Assembly (NCBI GenBank): GCA_025330725.1
Contig: JAIWND010000001.1
Span: 1,990,501-2,054,500, forward strand
Source: Chlamydoabsidia padenii
Taxonomy: Eukaryota; Mucoromycota; Mucoromycetes; Mucorales; Cunninghamellaceae
Length of the DNA stretch: 64,000 bases
Direction of reading: 5' to 3'
This document shows, one piece after another, positions 25,882-58,638 of this stretch. The stretch's first letter is position 1. Every line of letters starts with the position of its first letter. The translations under genes and the position numbers were made by a program. The notes beneath the pieces are model-generated. The model was not told the origin of the DNA, made no database searches, and saw only the letters and a program-made list of their open reading frames with translations.

Positions 25882-28800
25882 ATGCGTCTTGTTCCACGTG
25901 AGCTTGATAAACTGATACTCCATCAAGGTAATGACAACAAGAACAACAAAGAAAAAAAGAAAAAAGAAATAAAGGTTGAACACAAAGACGGTCATACAAA
26001 TACCATCAACTTTGTGGATTAATTATTAACCTTTATATGTATGTTTTTTTTTTTTACAATAATAGTTGGTGAACTTGCGCAAAAACGACTCGCACGGGGA
26101 ATAAAACTGAACCATACGGAAGCCACTGCTTTGATTGCCTCTCAACTACTGGAACTGATGCGGGATGGTGTCTATACAGTGGCGCAACTAATGGATATGG
26201 GCAAACAAATGCTTGGACGACGACATGTTATGGATGAAGTCTTGGATATTTTAGATGAAGTACAGGTGGAAGGTACTTTCCCTGATGGCACATACTTGGT
26301 GACAGTTCATGATCCTATTTGCACTGATAATGGTAATTTGGAACTGGCTCTTTATGGCACTTTCCTTCCGCTCCCTTCTCAAGACTCCTTTAAACTTCCT
26401 CCAGAAAAACGCACCAAAAGGGACGCACCAGGGGCGATTATTGCTTTGCCAGGTACAATCGAACTAAATGCGGGTCGAAAACGAATCTCACTCACTGTAT
26501 CTAACACGGGTGATCGTGCAGTCCAGGTAAGGATCATGACGAAAAAGAAAAAGGGGAAGGACAAACTGTAACTTTAAAAAACATTACAGTTACCGAAAAT
26601 AGAAAAATTACAGGGTTTAAAACAAAGGGATGGTACTAATTAGTACATACTTCTTTTTTCTTTTTTACTTCTTTATAGGTTGGATCCCATTACCATTTTA
26701 TTGAAGCCAACGCTGCATTACACTTTAATCGTGCACTATCGTATGGTATGCGACTAGATATTCCTGCTGGTTCGGCAGTACGATTCGAGCCCGGCGACTT
26801 TAAAACGGTGACCTTGGTGGAAATAGGTGGAAACAAAATTATTACGGGTGGAAACAATCTTGCAACAGGGCCACTGGATCTGGTGAATCTACCTGCGATT
26901 ATGGACAAATTGATACAGAATGGGTTCTTACATGATGCGAACACTCCACTTTTACCAAATGCTCCTCCTTACGCTTTGGATCGAGACTACTATGTGGATC
27001 ATTTTGGTCCAACAACAGGTGACTTGGTACGGCTGGGCGATACAGATCTCTGGGCTAGGATCGAGAAAGACTACACAATGTATGGTGACGAATGTAAATT
27101 TGGTGGTGGGAAGGTGCTACGTGAAGGAATGGGGCAAGCAACTTACGCATGTGATGACGACGTTCTCGATCTAGTCATCACCAATGCTGTGATTTTTGAT
27201 TATACTGGTATTTACAAGGCGGATATTGGCATCAAACATGGTATCATTGTCGGCATTGGAAAAGCGGGAAATCCTGATGTCATGGACGGTGTGACGCCCA
27301 AGATGGTGGTGGGTGCAAGTACGGAAGCTTATGCTGGTGAAGGCAAAATATTCACAGCTGGTGCGATTGATTCTCATGTCCATTATATCTGTCCTCAAAT
27401 CTGCGCCGAGGCAAGTTGGGTTAAATAAAAGGGAGATTCACGACTCACTTTTTTTTTTTTTTTTTATACTTCGGATTACCAAAAATAGGCATTGGCTGGA
27501 GGTATCACTACTCTCATTGGTGGTGGAACTGGTCCAAACACAGGAAGCAATGCAACAACATGCACTCCCGGAAGACACCACATTGAATACATGATGAAGG
27601 CGACGGATGATCTTCCGTTAAACTTTGGGTTCACTGGAAAGGGGTGTAGCTCAGGAAAAGAAGAATTGGTCGAACAAATCAAATCCGGTTGTCTGGGACT
27701 CAAGGTGCATGAAGATTGGGGGGCTACCCCTGCAGCTATTGATGCTTGTTTAGAAGTCTGTGATGAATTGGATGTGCAGGTAAACAATGAAATAAACCAA
27801 ACAGTGCAAAATTCAACTAACCTACTTCACTTTTTTTTTAATTAGACTACTATCCATACTGATACTCTTAATGAAGCTGGATTTGTTGAAACTACTGTCG
27901 CTGCATTCAAAGGAAGGGCTATTCACACTTATCATAGTGAAGGGGCTGGTGGTGGTCATGCCCCTGATAGTAAGTTAAAAAAAACACTCCCTAACTAGAT
28001 ATCTTTGACTCATTAATCACAATCTATGGTTAGTTATTAGTGTTTGTAGTGAAAGCAATGTCTTACCATCATCCACCAACCCAACTCGACCATTTACAGC
28101 TAATACTCTCGACGAGCATGTGGATATGCTTATGGTGTGCCATCATTTATCCAAGACGATCCCTGAAGACGTGGCCTTTGCTGAAAGTCGAATCCGTGCC
28201 GAAACCATTGCTGCTGAAGATGTGCTACACGATATTGGCGCCATCAGCATGATCAGCTCAGATTGTCAAGCCATGGGACGGGTTGGTGAAGTGGTTTTAC
28301 GTACCTGGAAAACAGCACACAAAATGAAACAACAACGAGGAAAACTCCCCGAGGACGAAGGACATGAAGACGACAACTATCGAATCAAACGGTATATTGC
28401 AAAATACTCCATTAATGTGTAAGTAAACAAAACAATAAACAGATTAGTAATAAGGATGGAACTAATGGACTGTTTATAATGTAGGGCTATCTCTCATGGG
28501 GTGGGTCATCTGGTCGGGTCAATTGAAGTGGGCAAGGTGGCGGATTTGGTATGCTACGACCCGGCCTTCTTTGGGTCGAAGCCTGAAATGGTGATGAAGA
28601 GTGGAATTATTGCATGGAGCATGATGGGTGATGCTAATGGGTCGATATCAACAACTCAACCAATCATATTCAAGCCTATGTATGGAGCCCAACCTTCTGG
28701 TCTCTCCTCCAGCTGTTTTGTCTTTGTATCTCAGCTCTCTATAGACTCTGGTACTGTGCAAAAATACGGTCTACGCAAGAAGATCGAAGCCGTCAAGAAC

Positions 28801-51478: not shown

Positions 51479-52982
51479 TCAACCACCAAAGCCAACACCA
51501 TCCACCACACGACGATGTTCTACTTCATGGTGCGCATTGTAATCCAGGTGCACAAATGCTCTTTCAACATTTTCCATCATTTCCAATGCATCTTGTAAAG
51601 CTTCACCCACATCATGGGCTTCGTGTAGAGGACATTCAGGAGGTAGGATGATATCAATTTCAACCAAGAGACGATCACCATTATAGTAAGCACGGACAGT
51701 ATCCACAGCGGTAATCTTGGTGGAGAATCGGTAGGCCATATAAGTCAATTGCTTCAGATCTTCCGAGCTTGCTGCTTGCCCTGTTAAACGACGAATATTT
51801 TCTATTATACACAAGAGTTAGTCAATGTTTCCCTTTTCACTTTTACTTACCTAAAAGGATTTGCATCCATTCATAAATGATATAGATAGATAAAATAATG
51901 GCACCCACTGGATCCAACCATGGCATCTTGGCCCAAATACCTAATAAAAACAATAAAATCAGTCTACCCGATCCCATTATTCCCTTTTTTTTTTTTTTCT
52001 TTGTTTGTTTTTATGCTTACCAACAACAGGAAAGATAGTACTTGCAATACTAAACACCACATCATTTTCATGATCATGAGCCAAAGCATCTACACTAGAA
52101 CTTCCCTTGATCGTCGCACACCAAAACCATAAGAGAGCCTTGATCACAATATTCGATCCCAGTAACACCAAAGCGCCCGTACTAAGATCCAATTCTTCGC
52201 CCGTCTTACTCGGATCAGTCAATCGTTGGATGGAGTTCATCAAGACTTGTGAGAAGGAAGTAGTGATGATCACAGCAAACACTATAATTCCCAAAGGTTC
52301 CATTCGTGACTAGAGAGAAGAGAAAAAGGATTCAGTTGACTAGATATGAGGTACTCTCTTTACCTTGCCCACCGGATAAGTATAATAATCTTTATGTCGA
52401 ATAATGCGGATGGTGAAGAAGATGATCGCATTGCTGACAATATCTAAAAAGCTTTCAAAGGCCGACGCTAAAATAGCCATGGAGCCAGAGAAGAGTGCAA
52501 GGAAGACTTTAGTGGCAAAGAGTGCAAGGTTGGCTACAAAAGAGAGATTAATGGCCAAGTGAATCATCCATAAAGCTGTTCGTTTTTCGTTTTGTGAGGA
52601 TAGTGGTGTCAACAGTGATGTGTTTTCGTTGGGATTTTCCTCGTCATGTCGTTCGTGTTGATATTCCAGAGGTGTCACGCCATGCTTGAGGGCTTCAATC
52701 ACATTATCCACTTCCATAAACCGATCAATCATATCATTTTGCTCCTATTTATTAAAATATTATTTGTTAGTATGATAATAAAACCGGCTATCTTTTTTTT
52801 TTTTTTATTCTTTCAAATTTTACCTTGTAGAATCGTCTGACTGTCTTGTTAGTAATCTTGGCAAGTTGATCATCAGGTAGGCGCAAAGAATTAAAGTCGA
52901 CAGGAGGTGGTAAGGCTGAAGCTGCCAAAGACACTAGGCCTTTTTGACAACTCTTTCGTCTACTGGACTGTGAGTCAGTCAT
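51479..52982 (-). CDS. Cation diffusion facilitator (CDF/MTP) metal transporter
   Basis: Exons from ATG 52982 to the stop at 51479, about 410 aa. An N-terminal cytosolic region (KITNKTVRRFYKEQNDMIDR) is typical of Mn-CDF-like members. The transmembrane part follows (IHLAINLSFVANLALFATKV, SGSMAILASAFESFLDIVSN, SRMEPLGIIVFAVIITTSFS, ALVLLGSNIVIKALLWFWC, ALAHDHENDVVFSIASTIF, LDPVGAIILSIYIIYEW). A C-terminal cytoplasmic domain ends AFVHLDYNAHHEVEH. The metal site on TM5 is DHEND (DxxxD). On TM2 the usual DxxxD is ESFLD, a conservative Asp-to-Glu change. CDF proteins export divalent metal from the cytosol in exchange for H+. A GGGGATTCAA element is ~60 bp upstream. Manganese is the likely substrate from family resemblance only. 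Confidence 0.9.
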
Positions 52983-53884: not shown

Positions 53885-55399
53885 GAGATCAATACGTTAA
53901 AAGGTATAAGAAAAAGAGGGAAGAGAAAGAATAACATTTAAAAAGAATCATCTGACAACTTGGGGATACATATCATAAAGGAAAAGACAAAGTAAGGTGT
54001 CAGGGTCGGGATTTGTAAGCCAAAAAAGGCAATCGGGATCAAGTCATAACAATCAATGATTGAGACAATGGTTCCTTTTATCTACTATGGCTCATCAAAT
54101 GTTGCTATTCGATATGTGAGCTTTTTTCATAATGATTTTACATCCCATTTATACATGTATCATTTCACTTTTTCTTCTTTATGATCCGACAGATGAGGTT
54201 AAACACTCGTTCAGGAAAGTATATGATTATATGCCGACGAACGAGTATATTCACATCCCGACTGACATTGACAAACAAGTAGAGTAGACAAAGGATCATG
54301 AAACCTGGCCCAGTGAAGTACAAAGCAGTAAAAAAAAAAAACATAATTTTTATTGATATTAAACTATACTATGTTTAAAGGGAGATGCCATCAAGAGACA
54401 CAGCATGGATTAGAGTATTCAGGTCACCAAAGGGAAGAGACACATAAAAGTGCTGAATTGGTGTATAGTGCTTGTTTTACTAATAAGGTACAGTCCGCTA
54501 TTCATTTAGTTGATTCATGTTTGCTGGGAGTGTTCGTTCGTATAAGGCGTGCCACGCATACCTAGACATATGGATTACAAAGGTAATGAGTTCCAGTTCA
54601 ACCTTTTTCTTTTTCCCGGCCCAAATTCATTTTATCCCCTTCCCCTTTGGCTTGCAAAGTTTGATTCAATCCCTTTTGCTGAAATAAACTAGTGGTCGTA
54701 TGCATAAGTTTGTTGCTGAGAGCAAGTTGTCTCCCCACCACCAAATCGCATGACCAGTTTCAAAGATTAAACCTTCATGACCCAGAGTTTTCTTTTAGGT
54801 AATATTTTACTAGTTTGAAAAAAAAAAGTGGTTAGTGTTTGTTCGTTATTTGTAAGATAAAAGTTTATCTTCAGCCTTACAAATACAAGTAACAGAATCA
54901 AGTAGAAGAGGAAAGAAAGTAATTGAGAGAAAAAGAAATCCCCCATTAAAAAAAAAGCCCGACGGAAAGCGGGATTGGAATTTCGACCTCCTGTTTGACT
55001 TTGAACTTTTGTCGTTTCTCCAAGCAGTCCATTTGCATTAAAATTTCTAAACGGACAGGCGGAGCATCAGGACTGCACTTTTATCATACAAGTTTGGATA
55101 AATTTCGACAAGGGAGGGTCCCATGCCATCTCTTGTACACATCTTCCTTTACAGTCATCCATCTATTATTGAGTGACTCACTATATCACCTAGTTCACGA
55201 CCCGTTTTAATCATTTGCATGATCATGGTGACTGGAGTGATATGGGAAATACTTCGAGAGACTTCGATGATTGAGTGGCTTGAGATGGTATGACCAATGA
55301 GGATGCCGTGTGTTACTTTTCAACAGTCAAAGAAAATTTTTTTCTCAGGAGAGCGGAATGTGAAAAAGTTTTAATAAAAAGGGGAGGGACCCCAAATAA
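53885..55399. other. Gene-poor spacer
   Basis: 1.5 kb with CATCCCGAC at 54253-54261, CAATCCCGC (reverse) near 54967-54975 and scattered A/T runs. Open frames (for example 54353-54565 plus) have no splice or homology support. Confidence 0.5.
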
Positions 55400-55519
55400 C
55401 ATTTCCTTTCACTCTTCTTTCCTTCATTGATAATAATGACTTGGTTATAATGGTAAGTTTATTATTTTTTTATATTTTTATTGTTACATGTATGTCTTGT
55501 TATGGTATGTTATGTATAT

Positions 55520-55642
55520 GAAGGTGGGATGATGAAAATTCAAACATTGTCTTCATTTTATCTTATCGACCATGGTGAAAGAACCCGCTGTGCTTCGCTG
55601 AGCGCAGTTGTTACTTGCCAGTAAAAACCCCTGACCACATTC
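55520..55642 (+). ncRNA. Box C/D snoRNA candidate
   Basis: Box C ATGATGA at 55529-55535 and box D CTGA at 55631-55634 are flanked by GAAGGTGG (55520-55527) and CCACATTC (55635-55642), which pair in 7 of 8 positions as a terminal stem. An internal CTGA at 55598-55601 could be box D'. It lies inside intron 1 of the host gene, about 100 nt before the acceptor. The guide target is not assigned; in yeast snR190 is co-transcribed upstream of U14, which makes a snR190 role worth testing. Confidence 0.6.
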
Positions 55643-55854
55643 ATATACATCATATCATACACATTATATACAATTCAATTTAACTATTATCATATTGTAT
55701 ACTAAATCATTATGCTTTTTTTTAATATCTCCAATGTATAGATTCTATCATTGTAATTGGCTCATTGTTATTTGGGGATTGTTCACTTAAATTACTAATA
55801 GGTAAGTCATCAATTGAAAAAAAAGAAGAAAAAACCATCAAGACAGGAAAATGT

Positions 55855-56009
55855 ATTCTTGGAATCAACATGATGATGAATCCCGTGTTCGCAGTTTCCT
55901 CTGGAGAGACTTGTGCGGGCTGGCGTGTTCCAATGGATGTCATTCGTCTTGGCCCCGTCTCAGTGTCAGTTTTATAACACTTCCTTGGATGTCTGACTGT
56001 TCCAAGAAT
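55855..56009 (+). ncRNA. snR128: U14 box C/D snoRNA (SNORD14/snR128)
   Basis: Both diagnostic U14 18S-pairing domains are present. Domain A, TTCGCAGTTTC (within 55888-55900), is the exact complement of the conserved 18S GAAACTGCGAA. Domain B plus box D, TTCCTTGGATGTCTGA (55981-55996), matches the U14 3' end. Box C is ATGATGA at 55870-55876. The ends ATTCTTGGAA (55855-55864) and TTCCAAGAAT (56000-56009) form a perfect 10-bp stem. It lies in intron 2 of the non-coding host. U14 is needed for early 18S rRNA processing and guides a 2'-O-methylation. Confidence 0.93.
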
Positions 56010-56161
56010 ACTATACGATTGGTCTTCATTACATTTATGTACTGTGATACTCATCTATTCCTTATTTTATTAGTCAATAGATATTTCTTTATGAATAAAG
56101 CCGATATCCTTTTATTATACCATCATCCCCTTTTATATTTGTCTACTTTTTATTCTTGTCT

Positions 56162-56272
56162 TTGTCTTTGTGATGATATCTTTTTTTTGCATATTCTGGC
56201 ATCTCTAATATCAATGATCTTCCGTTTTATACCGAGGATCATAATGTATTTAACTTAGATTCTGAAAGACAA
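56162..56272 (+). ncRNA. Box C/D snoRNA candidate
   Basis: Box C GTGATGA (56170-56176) and box D CTGA (56262-56265) are bracketed by TTGTCTT (56162-56168) and AAGACAA (56266-56272), a perfect 7-bp terminal stem. A possible D' (CTGG) and C' (ATGATCT) lie between. It is 150 nt after the U14 sequence on the same strand and may belong to the same transcript, though no clear intron encloses it. Target unknown. Confidence 0.5.
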
Positions 56273-57009
56273 TAGACACTTTAGAATATAGTTTTAGTAA
56301 AAAAAAAATAAAAAGTCATTTGGCTGATTGACCGTAATGTGCAGAGACGGAACCCTAAAAATGGAAATCACATGCTCTACTCTATGCCATTCACATTGAT
56401 CCCTTCTTTTGCTAACTATGTCACCTCATACGAAGCCTCAGTGCTATATGATCAACACTTTCAGCAATAACAATGGCCATTTTTAATGCAACGACTTTAC
56501 ATTTACATGCGACACCATCAGGATTAATATCTTGTGCACCAACAACTTTTACAATAGTGCAAACACGTCCCACCCTCTAGTCCGCCTTTAGTAAAACAGT
56601 ATGAATAGACTAGCGAATGACGTTGGAGGGAATGCAGCATATGATAAGCATGGAATACCCACGTGTAACAATCGCTGCCGCCATCCATTTGGTATTAAAC
56701 TTCCATATTCTCTCTGCAACTTTAATCACCTTGACCCAACTGTGATCACCAACTGTATTGAAGAAACCTGTAGATGTAGATGTCCCGTTCCATTTAACAA
56801 TAGATTAATTAAATAATAAAACCTTCTTTTTATGATTTATACCTTGGATAAAGAATCAGGGGTAACTTTAATGTTATCATGTTGATTCTAACACCTCTTA
56901 TTTATTAGTAGATGTGTGTGTTTGTAAAAATATAAATAAAGGGGATAACACTATGCTAATAAATTAGTCTATTAATAAAGATAGATAAAGCCCCAATGAT
57001 CCATTCTAT
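56273..57009. other. Spacer with coding-like minus-strand stretches
   Basis: Two minus-strand open stretches (about 56800-56625 and 56575-56430) can be joined by a plausible 85-nt intron but have no start codon upstream. The translation is not recognised. It may be an eroded exon pair or chance. The squalene synthase 3' region, with AATAAA-type signals, begins near 57000. Confidence 0.3.
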
Positions 57010-58638
57010 CTAGAGTGATTTCAAGTATTGGACAATGACCATCCCAATAAGACCGACAAGGATAGGTAAAATGATAGATGTCGAGTTGTTGGTCTTGACT
57101 ACGACTTGTTTACTAGGTTCGATATTGGCCGTAATCCATTGTTCAATCTATATTATCACAAAAAGTACCTGTTAGTATAGTACAGATCCCTCTTTTTCTT
57201 TTGTTACTTTTCCAATAGCCATAGAGATCTTTAAAAAGTTCGGATCGGTGGTTTCATTCTTCTGTGAGATGACTTGAATGTATTCCCGGAAGATGGCGAT
57301 CACATTATCCATATTTGTACTAGCCAAAATCAATTTGACAGCTTCCCCTTTTCGAATCTTGACATTGCGTTGATATACATTCAGATTGTTAAAAACCAAA
57401 GCCAAAGTGGAGATAGCCATCACTTGGGGAATAGCACAAAAGTTGAAGACAGATTGGTTTCGTAGTTTGGACAAGTAGGTCAGAACATCAGGTACTAATT
57501 CTAACACATTGAGCACCATTGCACTTAGACAAGCACGAGACTATGAAAAGGAAAAGGAAGAAATGGAGCCAGTCAGTAGACTGATCTGATTCCAATATAT
57601 ATATATATATATATATATAAATACATACCTTTTCCCTGTGATCAGACTTGATAAGATCCCCAAAGTTATCAGCATAATTACCCCAGATTTCCTTTGGCCA
57701 GAATTGTCGACCATCATCCAAGTCTTCACGATAATCACGAATAATGTTGGTTTTTTGTAAAAAGAGGCCCATACAATTAGAGAGGTTCTTGTCATTAGCA
57801 ATCAAGGGATCTTCCAAACCAGAGGCAGCGAACAGATCAGATAAACCATAGCCCACCAGACCAGCCACATAATGACAATACAGATCAAAATCCTTAATCG
57901 TCGCTATCGATGTATTTTCCCGATGTTCACCCGTCGCATAATCCGCCATACCATTTCCCATCAATCGTGTAATGTCCGCAATCACTTTTTGAAATCCAGG
58001 CTTGAGTCGAAGGAATTCATCAATCACCACATCAAAATGTACCAAGAGATCACGATCTTTTTCATTAGGCCCATCTACAAAGAGAGAGAGAGAGTTGAGT
58101 TAGAGCCCCTACTACTACTATTACTACTTACTTACTTTCATTGAATGTCCACCCTTTTCGATAGATAATAGTATCAAAGGATCGAAGTAAGTCCACCTTT
58201 CGATTCAAATCCAAAGACATATCATCTTCAATGGTATCCAATCCACGTAGCACAAGGTAAAATATACAGATCTATTCAAAAAAAAAAAAAAAAAGGTGAG
58301 TAACAGGTACAAAAATAATGATGACCAAGTAACCTTACCGCGTCCCGAAGATCGTCGTCCAGTTCTTGAATGACAGCAGCAAAACTACGAGAAGTCTATA
58401 TACCCCAAACCACCCGAAAAAAAAAAGAGTTAGATATCATGTGAAGAAGACCAATAAAGATAATACAAGCATTGGTACTTACCATGTTCAAGTAGTTATA
58501 GCATCGCTTTTTTGCAGGGTCAGAAGCCAAGGCCTTTTGATGAGACTGCTTGTTTCGAGAGGACGCCGAAAACTTGTATTCAAGCAAAGCCTTGATTTCA
58601 GAAGGTTTTGTAATGGAATCTAAAAACACAGAGAGCAT
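57010..58638 (-). CDS. ERG9: Squalene synthase
   Basis: Multi-exon gene from ATG 58638 to TAG 57010, roughly 420 aa. Motifs: SITKPSEIKALLEYKFSAS (N-terminus), CYNYLNMTSRSFAAVI, the first Asp-rich site LVLRGLDTIEDDMSLD, the YCHYVAGLVG block, the second site NIIRDYREDLDDGRQFWP and IPQVMAISTLALVF. A C-terminal membrane anchor (SIILPILVGLIGMVIVQYL) tethers it to the ER. The enzyme condenses two farnesyl diphosphates to squalene, the first committed step to ergosterol. The start is 202 bp from the divergent CENP-O-like gene. The first residues (MLSVFLD) differ from the usual MGxxxFLxHP start but align in length. Confidence 0.96.

Follow-up and report, generated by a model that had tools for sequence, protein, structure and literature searches.

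A predicted spliced, non-coding host gene for U14 and neighbouring box C/D snoRNAs in Chlamydoabsidia padenii, with complementary exons at its first junction

From what kind of gene does an early-diverging fungus such as Chlamydoabsidia padenii make its U14 snoRNA, and do the exons of such a gene serve any purpose once they have been joined? Mammalian U14 resides in introns of protein genes. A preliminary description of our window (the whole 64-kb stretch of DNA analysed here) had placed U14 in the second intron of a spliced host with two exons and no coding capacity, and had regarded this as a different arrangement. The locus is situated between pieces of a cation-efflux transporter gene and a squalene synthase gene, both on the minus strand, and its features are collected in Table 1. 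Papers are cited below for those of their portions that were covered.

Table 1. Features of the predicted host gene and its surroundings (window positions).
Feature	Position	Strand	Remarks
Cation-efflux transporter gene, pieces	51479-51817 and 52340-52744	-	flank the host locus on one side
Exon 1 of predicted non-coding host	55410..55452	+	55410 is a working choice of 5' end; donor 55453
Predicted stem-loop, 5' arm	55429..55452	+	exon 1 side of junction
Predicted intron 1, 289 nt	55453..55741	+	GTAAGT...TATAG; candidate branch site TACTAAATC
snR107/snR190/SNORD12-type C/D snoRNA (candidate)	55524..55632	+	in intron 1; box C 55529-55535, box D CTGA 55631-55634; RF04328
Exon 2 of predicted host	55742..55801	+	between top acceptor and second-best donor
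Predicted stem-loop, top, loop and 3' arm	55742..55772	+	exon 2 side of junction
Predicted intron 2, 272 nt	55802..56073	+	GTAAGT...TTAG; branch-like TACTCATC ~20 nt before end
U14 (SNORD14) with 12-bp flanking stem	55853..56011	+	RF00016 match at 55865-56000
Predicted exon 3, start	56074..56161	+	AATAAA at 56094
snR48-type C/D snoRNA (candidate)	56162..56272	+	RF00471 and RF01505 at the same place, 56165-56267
Squalene synthase gene	57010..58638	-	convergent with host; spliced ORF 421 aa; PF00494 E 1e-39; 99% identical to the C. padenii protein over 90% of its length

As for U14, our searches agree with the preliminary description on boxes C and D, on domains A and B and on the place of the snoRNA within the second (predicted) intron, between donor 55802 and acceptor 56073. 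The Rfam model RF00016 matches the plus strand end-to-end with 41.6 bits, for which E is 8e-7 when 1.7 kb are searched and 3e-5 when the whole window is, and this is its single match at E<=0.001 in the 34.2-Mb assembly of C. padenii (Mucorales), which is the genome that we searched with covariance models (99 of 675 candidates scored). By alignment and by position alike, box C (55870-55876), domain A (55888-55899), domain B (55980-55992) and box D follow each other in order and are closed by a terminal stem, with the letters of both domains mostly agreeing with the Rfam consensus; box C begins 68 nt past the donor and box D ends 77 nt ahead of the acceptor. Pairing in the terminal stem is perfect, as had been described, albeit over 12 bp (55853-55864 with 56000-56011) rather than 10. 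A U14 score under threshold had been named beforehand as a reason to give up the assignment, and while the match is full-length, its score does literally lie below the gathering cut-off of 64 bits. We do not take this as a refutation since box C, domains A and B and box D are all present and a long insert separates the two domains, which, on our reading of the alignment, probably accounts for the low score. Folded plainly, the U14 stretch does not exceed its shuffles in stability (z of -0.67, with 48 of 200 shuffles equally stable). Viral contigs scanned for a 17-base piece of U14 gave seven stretches, none with an Rfam match at the gathering threshold.

Intron 1 carries a further C/D snoRNA that the preliminary description had not mentioned, upstream of U14 and on the same strand. 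Its match to RF04328 is weak (27.7 bits, gathering 44; E 0.013 in 1.7 kb, 0.47 in the window, 0.06 in the genome) and is the highest of eight genome matches at E<=10, the runner-up having 22.5 bits (49 of 5704 candidates were scored). We assign it to the snR107 type because this score comes together with the place just 5' of U14, a 12-base element (UACUUGCCAGUA) that equals the RF04328 consensus exactly and a long flanking stem (21 nt, 86% complementary); TTACTTGCCAGTA at 55611-55623 likewise agrees with the consensus, and the stretch folds with a z of -1.99. On our reading, UACUUGCCAGUA would be the published antisense element 2 of the snR107 family. The first antisense element (55549-55574) shares GUCUUC with the consensus for six bases and then diverges beside D', so that methylation guiding may have been lost, while the second element is intact. 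Loss of guide activity is also stated for snR190 of Saccharomyces cerevisiae (PMC11971394).

Downstream, a third snoRNA absent from the preliminary description follows the U14 intron. Two Rfam models match it below their cut-offs (RF00471, 37.7 bits, gathering 60; RF01505, 32.8 bits, gathering 40), as is true of the Rfam scores of all three snoRNAs, and it is the higher of two genome matches at E<=10, the other having 26.5 bits (58 of 8149 candidates were scored). Its terminal stem, TTGTCTT/AAGACAA, is exact over 7 bp and adjoins the boxes, and the stretch folds with a z of -2.37. This snR48-type RNA probably lies in exon 3 or is made independently; a third intron around it was ruled out, as none of the region's 12 best donors is a GT between 56074 and its 5' end. 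A scan of all 64 kb for places that combine boxes C and D with a terminal stem of 6 bp or longer gave one on the minus strand and three on the plus strand. The latter coincide exactly with U14, the snR107-type RNA and snR48, and we consider it unlikely that chance C/D boxes account for the locus. Two observations may be added on the window. Shortly 3' of snR48, at 56351, lies its sole AACCCTAA (both strands counted), which we take to recall the Tbf1/telo-box sites found near snoRNA genes elsewhere. At 27117-27408 on the minus strand the Rfam family 5_ureB_sRNA scores 86.4 bits opposite a urease-like ORF on the other strand; we treat this match as a false positive, and the family looks to be based on conserved coding sequence rather than on an RNA gene.

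What, then, argues for a spliced host around these snoRNAs? A splice weight matrix was trained on 12 introns from two neighbouring protein genes, the splicing of both of which yields long open frames. Within 55300-56600 it ranks 55453 (11.1 bits) and then 55802 as the two best donors, and 56080, 55741 and 56073 as the three best acceptors with a branch site; among the 3752 GT sites on the plus strand of the window, 55453 is in the best 6 and 55802 in the best 30. For intron 2, acceptor 56080 slightly outscores 56073, and the latter taken alone reaches 4.7 bits, just under the 12 training acceptors (5.3-11.0). The candidate branch site of intron 1 departs from the CTNAY form of the training introns. 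Where GTAAGT/TATAG introns had been described, both donors indeed read GTAAGT and intron 1 does end in TATAG, but intron 2 ends in TTAG. Each of the two host introns holds one snoRNA, and both are long when set against the coding introns of the neighbours (59-90 nt, median 70). The predicted spliced RNA (55390-56300) has a longest ATG frame of 55 codons, which overlaps snR48, and in Pfam searches none of the three stop-free frames across the locus passed the cut-off, the one hit being at chance level (E 0.07), so a protein product of the host was ruled out. Several predicted snoRNA-bearing introns combined with the lack of a long ORF after splicing are the marks of a UHG-type host. Transcription and splicing are predicted. 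Going by the sequence, we regard an intronic U14 in a spliced host that makes no protein as well supported, and the two-exon, non-coding host put forward earlier can be upheld on the strength of the top-ranking splice sites and the missing long ORF.

Exons 1 and 2 can pair with each other over their junction, which had gone unnoticed in the preliminary description. We found this pairing in a directed test modelled on reports of stem-loops in fission yeast, for which three spliced combinations were folded: all exons together give a z of -2.8, exons 1-2 one of -4.7 and exons 2-3 one of -0.1. The predicted stem consists of 11 bp, a C/C 1x1 mismatch and 14 bp, i.e. 25 bp in total (-19.5 kcal/mol), topped by a three-base loop which the exon junction adjoins; counted strictly from exon to exon, the helix has 23 bp. 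Some 7 of the 25 pairs (counted by eye) are G-U, and for this reason the stem is not a simple inverted repeat of the DNA. Mean pair probability of the arms is 0.96 in the spliced RNA, 0.88 with intron 2 retained and 0.89 in the unspliced RNA, whose predicted fold also pairs the donor itself. As the arms pair before splicing too, splicing seems not to be a strict precondition for the stem. Should transcription begin upstream of 55390, a 12-bp helix of 55390-55401 with 55766-55777 would compete with the outer half of the stem and leave the inner half in place.

Helices as long as this one are rare in our controls. None of 20000 dinucleotide shuffles matches the 23 bp, and among 41471 GC-matched placements outside the locus 36 have an equal helix, all at two places which are both purine/pyrimidine tracts; inside the locus, the same test finds 15 placements. 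This later test splits the locus off, whereas the folding-energy test and the first placement test took it in. The first placement test found 21 of 13935 placements reaching the observed helix, and 4 of 8034 once low-complexity placements had been dropped. By the looser criterion of energy, the 2141 GC-matched placements include 10 that fold as well and 26 that equal the number of spanning pairs, and none that does both; with GC matching lifted, both hold for 44 of 9754. Exon pairing is absent from the second junction of the host (exons 2/3), where the helix measures 10 bp. In two further snoRNA hosts of the genome, the helices at nine predicted junctions measure 8-15 bp. The nearest to ours is at the first junction of the host at locus L023, where 17 of 1000 shuffles attain its 15 bp; across these nine junctions we saw no sign that exon pairing is a general feature of the snoRNA hosts here. 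Exon bounds of the controls come from the matrix scan, except that two L023 acceptors and one L024 donor missing from its list were set by eye, and the L024 donor is one base off. The snoRNAs, the splice signals and the exon pairing of the U14 host are, in sum, supported at the level of sequence.

The two control hosts deserve attention in their own right. L023 (680-1852, contig C78) and L024 (953-1871, C56) appear to be paralogous predicted non-coding hosts that carry snR77-snR75-snR74 and a weak snR73-like match, with one snoRNA per 196-233-nt intron; snR78 was observed in the L023 copy only. They lend themselves to a comparison of how snoRNA hosts fare after duplication. A search of the genome for SNORD38 gave no match at E<=1 (64 of 3076 candidates scored).

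The explanation that we favour, and hold to be probable, is a non-coding snoRNA host of the UHG type. We infer transcription, splicing, one transcript for all three snoRNAs and cutting of the stem. Polymerase II would make a single transcript that is spliced twice, with excised intron 1 giving rise to the snR107/snR190-type RNA and excised intron 2 to U14; once debranched, the introns would be trimmed up to the snoRNP-protected flanking stems of each snoRNA. The host exons would not be used for protein. Spliced together, exons 1 and 2 would instead fold into the 25-bp stem-loop over their junction, and a double-strand-specific nuclease might cut this stem and so remove the cap, whereupon a 5'-3' nuclease could destroy the spent exon RNA and free the 5' side of the snR48 situated within or past exon 3. 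A role for the stem in cap removal and decay is suggested by analogy with the Pac1 stem-loop of Schizosaccharomyces pombe, and as U14 is predicted to be intronic, its own release would not need the cut. In budding yeast, Rnt1 acting on a 5' stem-loop is the usual means of cap removal for individually transcribed box C/D snoRNAs (PMC5934358). Given the rest of the explanation, cutting of the stem by a nuclease is a possibility that we lean slightly against. Profile matches for RNase III and dsrm domains in the genome did not reveal a clear Pac1/Rnt1 gene, one of which split exons may hide. PF00636 has four exon-level matches at three loci, PF14622 seven at five loci and dsrm three, and the RNase III domain loci (L020 on C27, L021 on C25, L022 on C89, L029 on C33 and L032 on C67) comprise one two-domain protein, mitochondrial ribosomal-like proteins and one weak sub-threshold match (C67). 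We take the two-domain protein to be Dicer-like.

The main rival to nuclease cutting leaves the gene as it is and assigns the exon helix to splicing, where it would draw the ends of the long intron 1 together with no part for RNase III. That the arms pair in unspliced RNA (mean probability 0.89), that intron 1 with its 289 nt is far from the coding median of 70 nt (n=12) and that a Pac1/Rnt1 gene was not clearly found are all in line with this. Yet there is no such exon pairing at intron 2 (272 nt) or at the nine predicted introns, 196-233 nt long, of the other hosts, so intron length alone is no reason for a helix, and a donor that is itself paired in the predicted unspliced fold hardly suits a splicing aid. 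We consider this role unlikely, albeit the strongest of the competing readings.

Less probable still, to our minds, is that intron 2 goes unused: splicing would remove intron 1 alone, and nucleases would release U14 and snR48 from exon 2, with the junction stem marking where to cut. S. pombe has such a layout, with U14 exonic and a stem separating it from snR107; the helix of C. padenii persists if intron 2 is retained (mean probability 0.88), and acceptor 56073 is weak. Against this, 55453 is the one donor in the region to outrank the GTAAGT at 55802, acceptors 56073 and 56080 both belong to the region's top three, and U14 sits between these sites at 68 nt (donor to box C) and 77 nt (end of box D to acceptor). 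Very improbable, finally, is an origin of each snoRNA from a promoter of its own, with the apparent host exons and their pairing due to chance. The Rfam scores under cut-off leave some room for it, and putative promoters do precede each snoRNA of cluster V in Neurospora crassa (PMC2780460). The best donors and acceptors of our region nevertheless fall around U14 and the snR107-type RNA, and the exon helix beats all 20000 shuffles.

How does this gene compare with known systems? That a non-coding U14 host would be a different arrangement does not hold, and its novelty is ruled out by papers on Neurospora and fission yeast. In N. crassa, cluster V consists of CD16, which is listed against snR190 and HBII-99, and CD37 (U14), each of them listed as intronic; their co-transcription was validated by RT-PCR, and the hosts of clusters I-V were termed UHG-like and have short ORFs only (PMC2780460). 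Cluster V resembles the C. padenii locus in having an snR190-type RNA and U14 in introns of a UHG-like host; in this ascomycete, however, the snR48-type CD8 is listed apart with the location 'IR', which we take as intergenic, and exon pairing is unmentioned in the covered part of the paper (PMC2780460). The early-diverging fungus Rhizopus oryzae is reported to have spliced, poorly conserved non-coding hosts with intronic snoRNAs (clusters I-III), but these snoRNAs are other ones (PMC3596301), and the term U14 does not occur in the main text of that paper. Human ZFAS1 is a non-coding RNA with members of the SNORD12 family in successive introns, and U14 is not described as hosted there in the part of the source covered (PMC11971394). 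The S. cerevisiae snR190-U14 (snR128) dicistron presents the same two types in the same order (PMC11971394); unlike the C. padenii gene, it has no introns and relies on Rnt1 for release.

The nearest parallel to the exon stem is mamRNA-snoU14 of S. pombe, a spliced non-coding precursor with snR107 in its intron and U14 downstream (PMC11971394, PMC12508059). There, once the snR107 intron has been spliced out, Pac1 cuts a stem-loop that spans the resulting junction, and mamRNA has a further role in controlling meiosis (PMC12508059, PMC11971394). Both genes thus have an intronic snR107-type RNA, U14 downstream and a junction stem-loop flanking the snR107 intron. They differ in that U14 is exonic in S. 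pombe (PMC12508059) and predicted to be intronic in C. padenii, in that the S. pombe stem (-15 of exon 1 to +121 of exon 2; PMC12508059) has the junction close to its base and ours has it beside the loop, and in that no stem is predicted before splicing in S. pombe (PMC12508059) whereas the arms can already pair at that stage in C. padenii. These differences speak against simply carrying the S. pombe mechanism over, as do the place of our stem at the first junction and the lack of a clear Pac1/Rnt1 gene among the domain matches. According to the authors of PMC12508059, conservation of the locus beyond Schizosaccharomyces 'was not evident'. For mixed snoRNA clusters of other eukaryotes they predict last-junction stem-loops in at least seven of ten (PMC12508059). 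In animal and plant clusters of this kind, e.g. human SNHG25, the last snoRNA is exonic and follows intronic ones; their predicted stem lies at the last junction and concerns other snoRNAs (PMC12508059), whereas that of C. padenii is at the first junction.

Already known, therefore, are an intronic U14 in a non-coding host, the snR190/snR107-U14 order and junction stems in snoRNA precursors. As far as our searches of open-licence papers show, new are the locus in Mucorales and snR48 as its third member and, outside Schizosaccharomyces, the split exon stem at an snR107-U14 gene. Exons of non-coding snoRNA hosts are commonly held to be functionless; here they are strongly complementary, and they are so, in a distant fungus, at the very junction for which an RNase III switch has been tested in fission yeast. 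It is tempting to propose, as a tentative idea that we would sooner doubt than assert, that an snR107/snR190-U14 gene, its snR107 placed in an intron between exons that pair into a nuclease-sensitive stem, was present in the common ancestor of Mucoromycota and Dikarya. If true, 'junk' host exons would be conserved as structure and not as sequence, and pairing-preserving changes in relatives would make the switch old and its age directly testable. On this proposal fission yeast would have kept the switch, budding yeast would have lost the introns but kept the order, and in C. padenii, to which the snR190-U14 gene order now extends among the Mucorales, the switch would control a gene for three snoRNAs.
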